From the NCBI GenBank assembly GCA_021414105.1, contig JAIOPB010000017.1:1-64000 (forward strand): DNA of 64,000 nt, in the 5' to 3' direction. The translations under genes were made by a program, and so were the position numbers. Shown one piece after another: positions 4,315-34,952 of the stretch; within the stretch, counting starts at the first letter, position 1; every line of letters begins with the position of its first letter. A model generated the notes under the pieces. The model was not told the DNA's origin, ran no database searches, and saw nothing but the letters and a program-made list of their open reading frames with translations. Source of the DNA: Nitrosarchaeum sp. GTDB lineage: Archaea > Thermoproteota > Nitrososphaeria > Nitrososphaerales > Nitrosopumilaceae.

Positions 4315-5433
4315 TCAGGATATTTCGTTTCTAAGCTTTTTAGTAATTGTAACTTCTATGTTATCAAAAAGATTTAGCATCTTACCTTTGTTTTCAATAA
4401 GATAGTCTACTCCTCTATCTTTTAATCTAATTTTCCACAATCTTATTTCTCTGTGTTCTTCAAAGAACTGTTCAATCATTTGCTCTCCTGACTTTGTTGG
4501 GTCAATAAACTCTTCAAAGATTTGAATTGTTTTTTCAACATTTTCTTCTTCTATTGTTTCTCTAGCTGATTGTATGGCTTGACTTAGCTCTTTTAGGTTT
4601 TTGAGTGGTTTTGGTAATTGTTTTTTTGTGATTCCAAATAATCCTTTTTTCTCTTTTCCCATTCTTTCTGCAACCTCTGCTGTAAGATCATATATTGGAA
4701 TTCTACTTAGACCGTCTCGTTTTTCATGTTGAACGATTAATCCTTTTTCAAGCAATTTCCTCAATGCATCGTCTGCATCATCTTTATCTAGAAATGTTGT
4801 CCATACAATAGCACCAAGTGTGTGATAACCTTGTCTGATTGATTCTAAAACTACTACTTCTACAATTCTTTTGAAGCCTTCTTCAATTCTAACATTTGCA
4901 AAATCTTTGTCTCTGATTGACTTTCTTGCATTTTTTACATCAATTTCGATTGAACGCTTTAATGCTTCAAGCGATTCTGGAACTTGGTTTACTAGAGACA
5001 GAAAACATGCTTTGTTGTACCATGCCATTCCATATGTAGGATCTGACTCTACTGCCTTTTCAACTGCATCTAGTGCTTTGGCATAATTTTTTTGTTCATA
5101 GTGAACTAGTGCTTTTAAATTCCAAGCTTCGGGGTTGGTTACGTCTATATCTACAATTTTATCATAAATCTTTAGTGCATCATTATACTCTTCCAAATGG
5201 AATCTTGCATAGCCTAATTTCATCAAAGTCTCAATGTTGTTTGGGTCGATTCGTAATGCCTGCTCAAAAATAACCGTTGCCTCTTCAAGCTTTTCATCGG
5301 CCATCAGGTTTACTCCCTTTTTAAATAATTTTTTAAGATTATAGTCAGGATCTACTAACCCTGTCTCCTCAACCTGATCTGTCTTTTTAGGCTCTATCTC
5401 TTTTTCATTTGATTTTTTTTGAAATGGCTTCAC
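4315..5433 (-). CDS. TPR-repeat protein with winged-helix-like segment
   Basis: 372 residues and convergent with the rhodanese gene, whose stop is 1 bp away. After a Lys/Glu-rich N-terminus, about four tetratricopeptide repeats span residues 33-170, with consensus fragments such as AEDKLEEA-type helices and ALRIDPNN. A segment at about 190-265 (VVVLESIRQGYHTLGAIVW to YDLTAEVAERMG) looks like a winged-helix domain. The C-terminus is charged and helical. There is no signal peptide, so it is probably a cytoplasmic scaffold. Its partner is unknown. Identification of the TPR repeats is secure; the winged helix is inferred from pattern. Confidence 0.75.
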   Translation of the reverse strand: MKPFQKKSNEKEIEPKKTDQVEETGLVDPDYNLKKLFKKGVNLMADEKLEEATVIFEQALRIDPNNIETLMKLGYARFHLEEYNDALKIYDKIVDIDVTNPEAWNLKALVHYEQKNYAKALDAVEKAVESDPTYGMAWYNKACFLSLVNQVPESLEALKRSIEIDVKNARKSIRDKDFANVRIEEGFKRIVEVVVLESIRQGYHTLGAIVWTTFLDKDDADDALRKLLEKGLIVQHEKRDGLSRIPIYDLTAEVAERMGKEKKGLFGITKKQLPKPLKNLKELSQAIQSARETIEEENVEKTIQIFEEFIDPTKSGEQMIEQFFEEHREIRLWKIRLKDRGVDYLIENKGKMLNLFDNIEVTITKKLRNEIS

Positions 5434-5524
5434 TAGCTCATCTTGGACATTTAATCTAGATAAATACTATCCTGAATTGAGCCTAGTTCTTGACATGTCT
5501 AAATCTCTGAAAATGTAGAAATAC

Positions 5525-6976
5525 TTGGAATTTACACAAACGATTGTGTCATCTCGTCACAGATTAGAGGTTCAAGGTCAAGCTCCATTCAAACAATCTG
5601 GCATCTATGAAGTACAGATCTTTATTGTTGACTCAAAACCATCTGTTGATCAAATTAGAAATAAACAATTTTCTTCGTTATGGAAAGGACATTTTCATCT
5701 TCGAGTAAAAGATGGAATATTCACAGAAATACTTGGTTCTGATGAAAACCCAATTCCTTCCTCTGTTTATGATCTAAATGCTGTTTGGATTGTTGTTGCT
5801 GATCTCTTTTCTTCATTGCATTCTATTTTTGATGTCTCTTTAGGAAAACCCTCAAAGGAAACTACATCTGAAACTAGAATTGAAATCGAATCACCAAAAC
5901 CACGACGTACTGTAAAGACAACTCCTGATTCTTTTACTGCATATGGTTATACTGGTCCACAAGGTGACAAAGGTCCAACTGGTCCACAAGGTGTTTCTGG
6001 TGACAAAGGTCCAGCTGGTGATAAAGGCCCACAAGGAATTCAAGGTCCACAAGGTGACAAAGGTCCAACTGGTCCACAAGGTGTTTCTGGTGACAAAGGT
6101 CCACAAGGTGACAAAGGTACACAAGGAGAAAAAGGAATAACTGGTGATAAAGGCGATAAAGGTGACAAAGGAGTCTCTGGTCCTATTGGTGATAAAGGTG
6201 ACAAAGGTCCAACTGGTCCACCTGGTGACAAAGGTCCTGAAGGACTGAAAGGTTCACTTGGTCCACAAGGAGAACGAGGATTAACTGGTCCACCTGGTGA
6301 CAAAGGTCAAATCGGATTACGTGGAATTACTGGCGAACAAGGTGACAAAGGTCCGTTAGGTCCACAAGGTGTTTCAGGCGATAAAGGATTAACCGGTCCA
6401 CCAGGTCCTATTGGAGAAAAAGGTCCGTTAGGTCCACAAGGTGTTTCAGGCGATAAAGGATTAACCGGTCCAACTGGTCCTATTGGAGAAAAAGGCCCAC
6501 AAGGTCCACAAGGTCCTGCGGGTGCAAAAGGATTAACTGGAGTTCCTGGACCACAAGGAGAAAAAGGTGACAAAGGTCTAATTGGTCTGCAAGGCGATAA
6601 AGGATTAACCGGTCCAACTGGTCCATTAGGAGAAAAAGGCCCACAAGGCCCACAAGGTCCACAAGGTGAAAGAGGTCCAACTGGTCCATTAGGAGAAAAA
6701 GGTCCACAAGGTCCACAAGGCATTCAAGGTCTACAAGGTGAAAGAGGTCCAATAGGTTCAATCGGTCCACATGGTGAACAAGGCAGAATAGGCGAACAGG
6801 GTCCAGTAGGTCAAGCTGGTCCTAGAGGTCCACCAGGTCCACCTGGAGAAAAAGGTCCAGCAGGAGGAATGTCTATGGAACAAAAAGCATTATTCAAAGA
6901 ACTTTTGGAAATCCTGACTAACAAAAATATCATTAGTACTGAAGACCAAATCAAACTGATGAGTTATCTTTACTAA
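5525..6976 (+). CDS. Collagen-like protein with 102 Gly-X-Y triplets
   Basis: 483 residues from a TTG start. Residues 1-140 form an unrecognised beta-rich domain without a signal peptide or membrane segment. Residues 141-446 are 102 consecutive, uninterrupted Gly-X-Y triplets, rich in GPQ, GDK, GEK, GPT and GLT. A 35-residue helical C-terminus ([19 protein letters not shown] and onward) could act as a trimerisation or attachment domain. Bacterial collagens fold into stable triple helices without hydroxyproline, helped by Lys-Glu/Asp pairs, and this sequence is full of such pairs. The absence of an export signal is odd for a collagen. A small gene follows 22 bp later. Function is unknown. Confidence 0.88.
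5945..6862 (+). repeat. Gly-X-Y coding repeat (102 triplets)
   Basis: This is a degenerate 9-bp-based repeat. Blocks built from GGTCCACAAGGTGACAAAGG recur many times, and longer blocks such as [12 protein letters not shown] and [17 protein letters not shown] are near-duplicated. Such arrays can change length by recombination or be mis-sized in assemblies. Confidence 0.9.
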
Positions 6977-6998: not shown

Positions 6999-7283
6999 AT
7001 GAGTGAAAACCCTGAAAAAATAGAATTCAAAATGTTGGATTACAAACGTCTTGAAAATGATTTTGTATCTTTTGAATTAGAGGATGGAACAATTGTAAAA
7101 GTCAAAGTTGATTTAGATCGTGTTGGCAAAGCTGTCAATTTTACAAATCCTGATGGCACTCCGCATTATGCCATTAACACTTCTGTAAAACTATCTATCA
7201 CTCCGCCCGATAAGAAATTTACAGTTCAAAAAAATGCAATTAAAGGAAAAAGCTCACAGCCTCCAAGCCAAATGTTTAGTTAA
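6999..7283 (+). CDS. Small acidic/basic mixed hypothetical protein, collagen-gene neighbour
   Basis: 94 residues, unrecognised. It starts 22 bp after the collagen-like gene on the same strand, so the two are probably co-transcribed. The N-terminal half is rich in alternating beta-prone residues (KMLDYKRLENDFVSFELEDG). The C-terminus is polar (KGKSSQPPSQMFS). There is no signal peptide, Cys or metal motif. A role as partner of the collagen-like protein is possible but rests only on position. Confidence 0.7.
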   Translation: MSENPEKIEFKMLDYKRLENDFVSFELEDGTIVKVKVDLDRVGKAVNFTNPDGTPHYAINTSVKLSITPPDKKFTVQKNAIKGKSSQPPSQMFS

Positions 7284-7309: not shown

Positions 7310-7330
7310 AATCGTCATTACATGACGATT
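7310..7330. terminator. Palindromic hairpin between convergent genes
   Basis: AATCGTCAT and ATGACGATT form a perfect 9-bp stem with a 3-nt loop. It lies between the end of the plus-strand gene (7283) and the end of the minus-strand gene (7349). T-rich tracts follow on both strands, so it could end transcription in both directions. Archaeal termination mostly relies on T-tracts, so the role of the stem is inferred. Confidence 0.45.
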
Positions 7331-7348
7331 GTTAGTTTTTTGACGTTT

Positions 7349-7486
7349 TTATCGTCGTCTTTTTGCTGCTTTTCTTCTAGGAGCTGCTTTTCTTTTTGGA
7401 GCTGCTCTTCGTCTAGGAGCTGCTTTTTTTGCTGCAGATTTTCTACTAGTTCTACGTTTAGAGGCAGCTTTTCTTTTTGTAGCCAT
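7349..7486 (-). CDS. 45-residue Lys/Arg/Ala-rich basic protein
   Basis: Start ATG 7486, stop TAA 7349-7351. The protein is MATKRKAASKRRT followed by AAP(K/R)R(K/R) repeats, ending KAAKRRR. It consists almost wholly of Ala, Lys, Arg, Ser and Pro, with no acidic residue. This is the composition of histone-H1-like or AlgP/HupB-type tails that bind nucleic acid through charge. The frame contains a regular repeat in protein space, whereas the overlapping frame in the same strand is a Gln/Leu/Glu shadow of it. A nucleoid or RNA-binding role is inferred from composition only. Confidence 0.7.
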   Translation of the reverse strand: MATKRKAASKRRTSRKSAAKKAAPRRRAAPKRKAAPRRKAAKRRR

Positions 7487-25344: not shown

Positions 25345-27168
25345 TTGAATATTTGTACTTTGAATAGAACACTATCCCTTAGTTTATGCTTTAGTTTATC
25401 ATTGTTAATTGTTGTTGCATCAGGACTAACCTTAGATATAAAAAATAATTTGCTATATGTTGTAGACACTAATAACATACTTGAGGCATTTGCATCAAAT
25501 TCTACATCTTTTACACCAAGTTCTCCAAAAAATCTTAAAACCTCGCCTATTTCTCCAACATCTGTTATTCTTATCTGGGATGAACCTATTCTTAGTAAGA
25601 ACATGACGGCTGTAACAGGATACAAAATTGAATACAAAATAGGCTCTGCCAGTTATATTGCTATTACTGCAGACACCAAAAGTGTTACTACATCATTTAT
25701 TCACCAAGGACTGGATTCCAGCAAGACTTACACTTATCAAGTATCTGCAATAAATTCAAACGGAACTGGCAATCCATCATCAAGTTCATCTGTCAAACCT
25801 GCAGCAACAACCGTACCGGGAGGATTAACTGCAACTGCAATTAATCCTACTCAGATTAGACTTTCATGGCAACCACCATCAAACACATTTGGTCAGTCCA
25901 TTAGTGGATATGAAATTAAGCCTGTGTTTGCAACTGATGTTTATGGTGATACTGTAGGTTCAACTAATGGGAAAACTACTAGTTACATTATAAGTAATCT
26001 GATAACTGACAAGAAGTATTCATTTGTAGTTGTAGCAAATATTGGTTATGGTTCTACTGGGCCATCAAATACTGCATCTGCTACTCCACTAACAAGTTCA
26101 GTTGATGTACCTGTAACTCCATCTTCTACTATCTCGACAATCACAGTTTCTACATCTCCAATAAAATTAACTGCGACAAGTGTTTCTTCGACTCAAATTA
26201 ATCTCTCTTGGAGTCCACCCTCATCTGATGGTAACTCTCCGATCACAGGTTACAAAATTGAAGTAAAACAAGACTCTGGCTCTAATTCTACACTAGTAGC
26301 AGATACAAAAAGTACTGCAACAACATATTCTCATACAGGTCTCATAACAAATTCAAAATACACATACAAAGTATATGCAATAAATTCTGTTGGTACAAGT
26401 ACTGCATCTAATGAAGTCACAGCAACTCCGGTTACTACTCTTAAGCTGAATCCGTTGGGTAAATTATCAATTGATGAAGGAAAATCTTTGTCATTTGCTG
26501 TCAAAGTAACTGATAATTCCTTGCATGGCCTAATCTTTAACCTAGACAAAAACCCTCCAATTGGTGCCAAAATCAATTCAAACACAGGCATGTTTACATG
26601 GACTCCTGCTGATTCACAGGGTGCAAAATCGTACACATTTGATATCGTTGTAACTCTAGGTTCATCGACTGATAGACAATCAATTACAATTACCGTGAAT
26701 GATGTTTTGAATGAACCTGAACCCACACCAGTAAAAGAACCAGAGCCAACATCAGAACCTGAACCAACACCCGAATTAGGAATTGCCTTATTTGTTGATA
26801 AATCAAAAGATCCACAATCGTATGTTGATAGATACAACAAAGAACCAACTTACAAAAAATGGTTTGATACAAACTTCCCAGAATATTCTTCTATCTATGA
26901 GGCAGTTGGCTTAGATGAACCAAAGAAAGATCCACAATCGTATATTGATAGATACAACAAAGAACCAACTTACAAAAAATGGTTTGATACAAACTTCCCA
27001 GAATATTCTTCTATCTATGAGGCAGTTGGCTTAGATGAACCAAAAGTCGAGGAACCAAAAGTTGAAACACCTCAATTTGGAATATGTGGTACTGGAACAA
27101 AATTAATTGATGGAATGTGCACTCTTATTGAAATGCCAAAAGCTAAACCTTGGTGGAAGTTTTGGTAG
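25345..27168 (+). CDS. Secreted fibronectin type III repeat protein
   Basis: 607 residues. An N-terminal hydrophobic stretch (LSLCFSLSLLIVVASG) acts as signal or anchor. Three FN3 domains follow at about 55-153, 155-248 and 268-362, each with SWxPP and TYKV-type strands. An Ig-like putative-Ig domain spans 366-455 (GLIFNLDKNPPIGAKINSN). A Pro/Glu linker leads to two nearly identical 40-residue modules (488-527 and 528-567) and a C-terminal GTKLIDGMCTL plus PWWKFW tail. This is a cell-surface adhesion or matrix architecture. The start is TTG 25345 (MNICTLNR). Confidence 0.82.
   Translation: MNICTLNRTLSLSLCFSLSLLIVVASGLTLDIKNNLLYVVDTNNILEAFASNSTSFTPSSPKNLKTSPISPTSVILIWDEPILSKNMTAVTGYKIEYKIGSASYIAITADTKSVTTSFIHQGLDSSKTYTYQVSAINSNGTGNPSSSSSVKPAATTVPGGLTATAINPTQIRLSWQPPSNTFGQSISGYEIKPVFATDVYGDTVGSTNGKTTSYIISNLITDKKYSFVVVANIGYGSTGPSNTASATPLTSSVDVPVTPSSTISTITVSTSPIKLTATSVSSTQINLSWSPPSSDGNSPITGYKIEVKQDSGSNSTLVADTKSTATTYSHTGLITNSKYTYKVYAINSVGTSTASNEVTATPVTTLKLNPLGKLSIDEGKSLSFAVKVTDNSLHGLIFNLDKNPPIGAKINSNTGMFTWTPADSQGAKSYTFDIVVTLGSSTDRQSITITVNDVLNEPEPTPVKEPEPTSEPEPTPELGIALFVDKSKDPQSYVDRYNKEPTYKKWFDTNFPEYSSIYEAVGLDEPKKDPQSYIDRYNKEPTYKKWFDTNFPEYSSIYEAVGLDEPKVEEPKVETPQFGICGTGTKLIDGMCTLIEMPKAKPWWKFW
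26806..27045 (+). repeat. Tandem 120-bp duplication (2 copies)
   Basis: Copy 1 is 26806-26925 and copy 2 is 26926-27045. They are almost identical at the DNA level (a G/A difference near 26824/26944 was seen). Each encodes KDPQSY(V/I)DRYNKEPTYKK and the rest of a 40-residue module. Near-identity including silent sites indicates a recent duplication. Confidence 0.9.
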
Positions 27169-33353: not shown

Positions 33354-34952
33354 ATGACATCAAAATTATGGTTATTTTACATAATGCTGGCACTTACTAT
33401 CTCTTTTCCGCTATCTTTTGCTCAGCACCATGGCGGTCAGCAAGCTCCCCCAATTAGTTTTGGAATGGGGGAAGTAACCGTAAGTACATCCTTAATTCCA
33501 GCAGATTTTACTCCTGAAAAATATTCTGATGCAAATCTAAAAATCCGATTTTTTGATCCTATGACTAATGTGAATATAGAAAGTGTCAGTTATAGAATCC
33601 AAATATTTTATGGCACACAATTGGTTGCAAATCAAATGTTTTTTGATAAAGACGGAGAGCTAGATATTAAAATACAACCCAAATCCGGGTGTCAGCAAGA
33701 AGAACTGTGGAAATGTACAAAATATTATGGAGACGTTGATCCAATTGTGCCAAATGCTTTAGCATCCACATCTTCTAGCATTCCTGTGATTTCCGGACCT
33801 GTGTTTGTTAATAGTGGACAATATACTGTAAAAACTGACATAATAGGGGCAAAAAATCCAAAAACCCAAACTACTCAGGATATTCATTTTGAAACTATTG
33901 TGATTATACCTAATGAACAACAATTTAAGATGATTGCATCTGGTACTGAATATTCTATTTCCGCAAAAAATTTTCAAGATCCAATTACAAAATTACACTA
34001 TGATGAATCTTCCAACTCAATAATCTTTGAAATGCCTTTTGATTGGACGCATATTGAACACATAGATTTTATAAAAAATTATTTTGAAATTCCAAAAAAT
34101 TTCTTACCTTTTCAACATGTGAACAGCTTTTATGGCAAAGTTAATGACGTTTCAATTCTTCCAAAAGATTTGCATTATGATAAATATTCAAGCAAAAATA
34201 CTGACATAATACATTTTATGATTAATAATGACGAGCTAAAACAATTCAAAAACTCTGATTCTAAACTAAATATTGCAATTATCCCTGAATCTCAATCATC
34301 CATAGTATCCAAAGACCTTTTGTTTGATAATGGATTTAAGGCTCTTGCCTCTTATGATTCCAGATATTCTAAAAGTAAGGATTTTCTTTTTTCAATTGTA
34401 TTTTTTGATTCAAAAGGAAATCTGGCTACTGACATACGATATGGATATGGTTTAGAGGATCCATCTGGAAAAGAAACTGTAAACACTGGTGGAAATCCAA
34501 ATCATTTGGGAATTACTTTGCCAAATGGCATTGATACAAGAATACTTGATGCTTCTCTAGAAGGTAAGTATTCTATGCAAATAGTATTGTTGGGAATTGG
34601 ACATGACGACTTTGAAAGACCTCTTTTTAAAAAATTTGAATTTGAAATGGTAAAATCTGAAATGCCAGAAACTGTGATTCCTGTATCTGCCATTCCAGAC
34701 TGGATTAAAAAGAATGCAGGATGGTGGGCAGACGGCTCCATTGATGATGATTCATTTATTCAAGGAATTCAATTTTTAATCAAAGAAAAAATAATTAGTA
34801 TTCCTTCCACTCAAAATTCAGGAACTGGTTCCAATGAAATTCCTAGTTGGATTAAAAAGAATGCAGGATGGTGGGCAGATGGTTCCATTGATGATGATTC
34901 ATTTATTCAAGGAATTCAATATTTGATCAAAGAAGGCCTAATCAACCCTTAA
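33354..34952 (+). CDS. Secreted protein with duplicated WIKKNAGWWADG modules
   Basis: 532 residues with a signal peptide (about 1-23, FYIMLALTISFPLSFA). A long beta-rich ectodomain follows, with a Cys pair near residue 105-115 (SGCQQEELWKC). The C-terminus carries two copies of a 32-residue module, IP(D/S)WIKKNAGWWADGSIDD and the linked FIQGIQ(F/Y)LIKE segment, about 49 residues apart. This module is common at the ends of thaumarchaeal exported proteins and probably mediates surface attachment or interaction. It lacks the PEFG tail seen in the 43796 gene. Confidence 0.8.
   Translation: MTSKLWLFYIMLALTISFPLSFAQHHGGQQAPPISFGMGEVTVSTSLIPADFTPEKYSDANLKIRFFDPMTNVNIESVSYRIQIFYGTQLVANQMFFDKDGELDIKIQPKSGCQQEELWKCTKYYGDVDPIVPNALASTSSSIPVISGPVFVNSGQYTVKTDIIGAKNPKTQTTQDIHFETIVIIPNEQQFKMIASGTEYSISAKNFQDPITKLHYDESSNSIIFEMPFDWTHIEHIDFIKNYFEIPKNFLPFQHVNSFYGKVNDVSILPKDLHYDKYSSKNTDIIHFMINNDELKQFKNSDSKLNIAIIPESQSSIVSKDLLFDNGFKALASYDSRYSKSKDFLFSIVFFDSKGNLATDIRYGYGLEDPSGKETVNTGGNPNHLGITLPNGIDTRILDASLEGKYSMQIVLLGIGHDDFERPLFKKFEFEMVKSEMPETVIPVSAIPDWIKKNAGWWADGSIDDDSFIQGIQFLIKEKIISIPSTQNSGTGSNEIPSWIKKNAGWWADGSIDDDSFIQGIQYLIKEGLINP
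34692..34934 (+). repeat. Two direct repeats of 96 bp encoding the WWADG module
   Basis: Copies at 34692-34787 and 34839-34934 (period 147 bp) differ at few positions. They share the long central block encoding KKNAGWWADG and DDDSFIQGIQ. Confidence 0.85.

Follow-up and report, generated by a model that had tools for sequence, protein, structure and literature searches.

A near-universal, signal-less collagen-like protein of Nitrosopumilaceae and its possible role as a cytoplasmic triple-helical rod

Relation to described collagen-like proteins

The streptococcal proteins SclA and SclB (NF038330 and NF038329) and the Legionella protein Lcl (NF046116) each carry terminal non-collagen domains on a Gly-X-Y rod that is long, uninterrupted, and free of hydroxyproline. 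The Bacillus exosporium protein BclA (PDB 1wck) is made in the mother-cell cytoplasm and also has a collagen-like rod, which is variable in length; it lacks a classical signal but still reaches the surface of the spore (PMC3850424). Signal-less repeats of the trimeric-fibre type are found in phage tail-fibre collagens (PHROGs 819, 5073, 6320, and 1806), and Gly-X-Y repeats occur in other thaumarchaeal proteins of the archaeal class to which Nitrosarchaeum belongs. A 2015 count of Pfam collagen sequences gave 14 from archaea versus 2,554 from bacteria (PMC4565658). Our literature search found no paper describing the signal-less collagen family of Nitrosopumilaceae as such.

The gene studied here (5546..6976, + strand) lies in the window, i.e., the whole 64,000-nucleotide stretch of Nitrosarchaeum sp. 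DNA that was analysed, which comes from a draft genome of 1.29 Mb in 65 contigs. It encodes a 476-aa protein whose limits were set from orthologue start positions and the Pfam Collagen match. The protein resembles SclA, SclB, and Lcl in its rod but differs from them in having no signal peptide, no LPXTG motif, and other end domains, and its scores are below the cut-offs of all three models: 177 bits versus 325 for SclB, 154 versus 400 for SclA, and 182 versus 500 for Lcl. Six orthologues likewise score under the SclA and SclB cut-offs. The match to BclA (1wck) is confined to the collagen repeat; where BclA has a short targeting N-terminus and a C-terminal domain, the archaeal protein has a 98-aa head and a 34-aa helical hairpin, and BclA is tied to sporulation whereas the archaeal host does not sporulate. 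Unlike the phage tail fibres, the archaeal protein has a head and hairpin that are unmatched, and its gene stands in a chromosomal housekeeping context; the other thaumarchaeal collagen-like proteins have other flanking domains. The protein is collagen-like by its repeat; it lacks the features that were used to test for an LPXTG adhesin, Lcl, BclA, or a phage tail fibre. The rod probably works like those of other prokaryotic collagens, with the differences lying in the end domains, the absent export signal, and the near-universal, family-specific gene.

Start codon and export signal

To collect orthologues, we queried relatives with the N-terminal portion of the protein and then read the open reading frames. 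Their aligned start is an ATG or GTG equivalent to GTG 5546 in the window, and many of the 53 orthologues have an in-frame stop codon a few codons 5′ of it. In nearly all 53, the likely start codon is separated by only 2 to 7 codons from the first conserved β-strand. Alignment of the upstream DNA of the same orthologues revealed an AT-rich, promoter-like element with the consensus GAAAATACAGAAATACTT at a near-fixed distance of ∼20 to 37 nt from the start codon; in the window it reads GAAAATGTAGAAATACTT (5509..5526, + strand) and may represent the BRE/TATA of a leaderless transcript. The earlier note had placed the start at TTG 5525, a reading whose first codons overlap this conserved element and which gains its extra codons because the promoter-like element precedes GTG 5546. 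Judged from these alignments, the true start is very probably GTG 5546 rather than TTG 5525.

The absence of a signal peptide was assessed by start position and hydropathy in the 53 orthologues, and none was found in any of them. The maximal N-terminal hydropathy in a 12-residue window has a median of 0.32 among orthologues, compared with 2.3 to 3.4 for seven proteins of the window that carry hydrophobic signals or anchors. Values of 1.7 to 1.95 occur in a few orthologues, mostly because residues 5′ of the likely start were counted. The N-terminus leaves no space for a signal peptide, because many orthologues have upstream in-frame stops and the first β-strand of the head starts at about residue 5 to 7. 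A hidden signal peptide reached through an upstream start was considered and rejected on the orthologue starts, the upstream stops, and the conserved upstream element. The missing export signal remarked on for the single protein is therefore a conserved property of the orthologue family. A search for the LPXTG sortase motif in 45 orthologues returned none (0/45).

In contrast, nearly all of the other thaumarchaeal collagen-like proteins examined have a hydrophobic N-terminal signal or anchor, including several within Nitrosopumilaceae; the comparison set departs from this rule only in a DnaK with repeats in its tail and in fragmentary or partly masked entries. The DnaK (L132 1297, + strand; G155:C57) was caught by the collagen model through a C-terminal tail of GAEGQQ repeats. 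Another Nitrosopumilaceae genome encodes a collagen-like protein of 2518 aa with 559 uninterrupted Gly-X-Y triplets (L129 ∼5246, − strand; G160:C1), in which the N-terminus is hydrophobic and an alanine-rich repeat region precedes the rod. The window itself (33354-34952 and 25345-27168, + strand) encodes two proteins that look exported and whose C-terminal motifs, IPSWIKKNAGWWADGSIDDDSFIQGIQ... and DPQSYVDRYNKEPTYKKWFDTNFPEYSSIYEAVGLDEPK, are duplicated.

Rod, head, and hairpin

The rod (5945..6871, + strand) matches Pfam Collagen (PF01391) with an E-value of 8.5e-51 and 170 bits (cut-off 27.2) and is the sole run of at least six Gly-X-Y triplets in the six frames of the window. The 102 perfect triplets first reported are real, and become 103 uninterrupted triplets when the final GGM is counted. 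In the 40 complete orthologues the glycine register is unbroken without exception, over 72 to 185 triplets (median 104). Three aligned pairs differ within the rod only by whole triplets, and the one single-residue gap among them falls in the linker. These patterns indicate that the rod is under constraint. In genus g5 (L054 and L052, reduced genomes of 0.8 Mb), the head is retained and the rod is short or interrupted, with 10 + 22 triplets in L054, as if in the course of loss; L052 and L056 end at contig ends.

The rod carries no net charge. Its acidic X residues are strongly paired with basic Y residues of the same triplet: 28 triplets hold Asp/Glu-Lys/Arg versus 9.4 expected. Charge pairing of Lys with Asp/Glu had been remarked on before, and it stands in this within-triplet form, whereas Lys-Gly-Asp/Glu is not enriched (4 observed versus 7.9 expected). 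Cysteine is absent from the window protein and occurs at most once in every orthologue. Three landmarks on the + strand lie at distances from the C-terminal rod end that are constant although total rod length varies. GLTGVPGPQ (6530..6556; triplets −38 to −36) keeps its position in about half of 41 orthologues and GPQGIQGxQGER (6710..6745; triplets −18 to −15) in nearly all of them; GPRGPPGPP (6818..6844; triplets −6 to −4), the proposed nucleation clamp, is fixed in position in nearly all 41, with 94 to 99% column conservation. GPP has a frequency of 0.274 in the last 8 triplets versus 0.063 elsewhere.

The N-terminal head (5546..5839, + strand) is a ∼98-aa domain that AlphaFold2, using 52 orthologues, predicts to be six-stranded and β with confidence (pLDDT 92, pTM 0.85). 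It is followed by a charged, proline-rich linker of ∼35 residues (5840..5944, + strand) that is poorly conserved and differs in length among orthologues. The earlier note's novel N-terminal domain of 140 residues thus comprises the head plus the linker, and the novelty holds for the head, which had no credible match in Pfam, PHROGs, or PDB sequences. No structural match in the PDB or BFVD had E ≤ 0.001, the nearest being SgrA 5fce (E 0.21, TM 0.53) and a phage protein (E 0.012). A suspected resemblance of the head to a β-domain common in bacterial fibre proteins gained no support from these searches, and an approximate consensus of that domain had no match in plasmids. Directly after the rod, a C-terminal end previously described as helical is predicted as a 34-aa hairpin (6872..6973, + strand; AlphaFold2 pLDDT 95.6), for which we propose a role as trimerisation knob. 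In the relatives searched, the hairpin was matched with confidence solely at the collagen gene. Both end domains are under purifying selection, with dN/dS of 0.05 to 0.24 in the head.

Distribution and possible function

The closest named relatives of the window's genome are Nitrosarchaeum, and its family is accordingly taken as Nitrosopumilaceae. A profile of the N-terminal domain matched 187 of 400 genomes of the class, all Nitrosopumilaceae among the matches listed, and phylum-wide it matched 43 of 250, again all Nitrosopumilaceae, with no unmatched genome of that family among those listed. The single-protein search matched 55 of 61 Nitrosopumilaceae genomes and 0 of 40 others. In the class-wide profile search, nearly all matching genomes have one match. 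Two complete-looking genomes (G161 and G172) lack the collagen gene, and since they also lack the neighbouring TPR gene, assembly gaps are suggested. The gene is near-universal, essentially single-copy, syntenic, and, among the genomes searched, restricted to Nitrosopumilaceae. It had been presented by implication as an isolated oddity, a view that does not survive the finding of collagen-like sequences in 112 of 150 genomes of the class and of an orthologue in nearly every Nitrosopumilaceae genome; the unusual point is a collagen that is signal-less, near-universal, and family-restricted. Two records in these searches bear unexpected names: a Nitrosopumilus-type gene block lies on a contig of a record named Phycisphaerae bacterium (L112, probably a contaminant), and the name Nitrososphaeraceae is given to a Nitrosarchaeum-like contig (L078).

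The conserved gene order is a sulfite/nitrite-reductase-like gene, a rhodanese, a divergent TPR gene, the collagen gene, in many genera a gene for a 94-aa protein, and a GTPase. The divergent TPR-repeat protein (4315..5433, − strand) is a constant neighbour, older and more widely spread than the collagen gene; it was set aside as a functional partner, adjacency being strong but the TPR protein occurring also in families without the collagen gene. The 94-aa protein (6999..7283, + strand) has no Pfam or NCBIfam match, and its gene is possibly co-transcribed with the collagen gene; it is not obligatory, because it does not adjoin the collagen gene in many relatives. A histone-H1-like basic protein rich in lysine, alanine, and proline (MATKRKAASKRRTSRKSAAKKAAPRRR...) is encoded at 7318-7486 (− strand), and several relatives also have it 3′ of the collagen gene, with variable repeat number. 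In codon adaptation the collagen gene is similar to the genes for EF-2 and superoxide dismutase, which hints weakly at good expression.

In animal fibrillar collagens the triple helix zips from the C- to the N-terminus. A GPP-rich C-terminal clamp immediately followed by a folded element suits zipping in this direction, and for this reason we propose the order hairpin, clamp, rod, heads. Three chains, lacking any Sec or Tat signal, would be made in the cytoplasm; the C-terminal hairpins would gather them and set the register, the conserved GPP-rich clamp adjoining the hairpin would nucleate the triple helix, and the helix would zip toward the N-terminus, with charge pairs taking the place of hydroxyproline. 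The product would be a rigid rod of ∼88 nm (computed at 0.286 nm per residue; 60 to 159 nm across orthologues) with one end carrying three flexibly linked β-domain heads and the opposite end a small helical knob. Its most likely role would be that of a spacer or scaffold inside the cell, in which the heads and conserved rod landmarks would serve for binding. We consider it an even call that the protein is such a cytoplasmically assembled, C-terminally nucleated trimer with N-terminal binding heads, and a core structural scaffold protein of Nitrosopumilaceae. More tentatively, conserved triple-helical rods of 60 to 159 nm may form a family-defining core scaffold in the cytoplasm of these cells. 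The cytoplasmic rod is the most likely reading because the signal is absent where the other collagen-like proteins of the class mostly have hydrophobic N-termini.

The main alternative, which we judge unlikely, is a collagen-like fibre or adhesin at the surface or outside the cell, associated with the S-layer and exported by a signal-peptide-independent route. The surface is where most characterised prokaryotic collagen-like proteins are found, bacterial collagen-like adhesins among them, and this counts against an internal rod. Since BclA is a precedent for signal-less surface assembly (PMC3850424), the absent signal is no proof of an internal site. S-layer association was proposed by the authors of a study of N. 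chungbukensis (PMC13037477); the label used there may denote an orthologue of the collagen-like protein, as orthologues score, below cut-off, on NCBIfam models bearing that name. Against export stand the 53 orthologues without a signal peptide, the 45 without LPXTG, and the reliance of the class's other collagen-like proteins, also within Nitrosopumilaceae, on hydrophobic N-termini.

A domesticated viral tail fibre or contractile injection system fibre that is built in the cytoplasm and freed by lysis is improbable. Phage fibres have no signal peptides, and many PHROGs tail-fibre families are matched by the rod, but these matches are confined to the collagen part, no viral relatives were found for head or hairpin, the neighbours are housekeeping genes in conserved order, and a tail sheath occurs in only one of the 61 Nitrosopumilaceae genomes; a viral origin finds no support and is disfavoured. 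A drifting low-complexity repeat forming a disordered chain rather than a triple helix, as might be suspected from the differing tract lengths among relatives and from the highly expressed collagen-like proteins of marine Euryarchaeota classed as disordered (PMC5069720), is hardly to be expected given the unfailing glycine register of 40 complete orthologues, the whole-triplet rod indels, and the fixed landmarks and GPP clamp adjoining a hairpin predicted to be folded.

The Nitrosopumilaceae, ammonia oxidisers with cells ∼0.2 μm across, rank among the most abundant archaea of the ocean. The cytoplasmic rod proposed here would be a hydroxyproline-free collagen with short, built-in, putative trimerisation and nucleation elements. 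Were the protein confined to the cell interior, a free-living cell would be using collagen as an internal structural element, and rods nearing half of the cell width would bear on how such tiny cells are organised.
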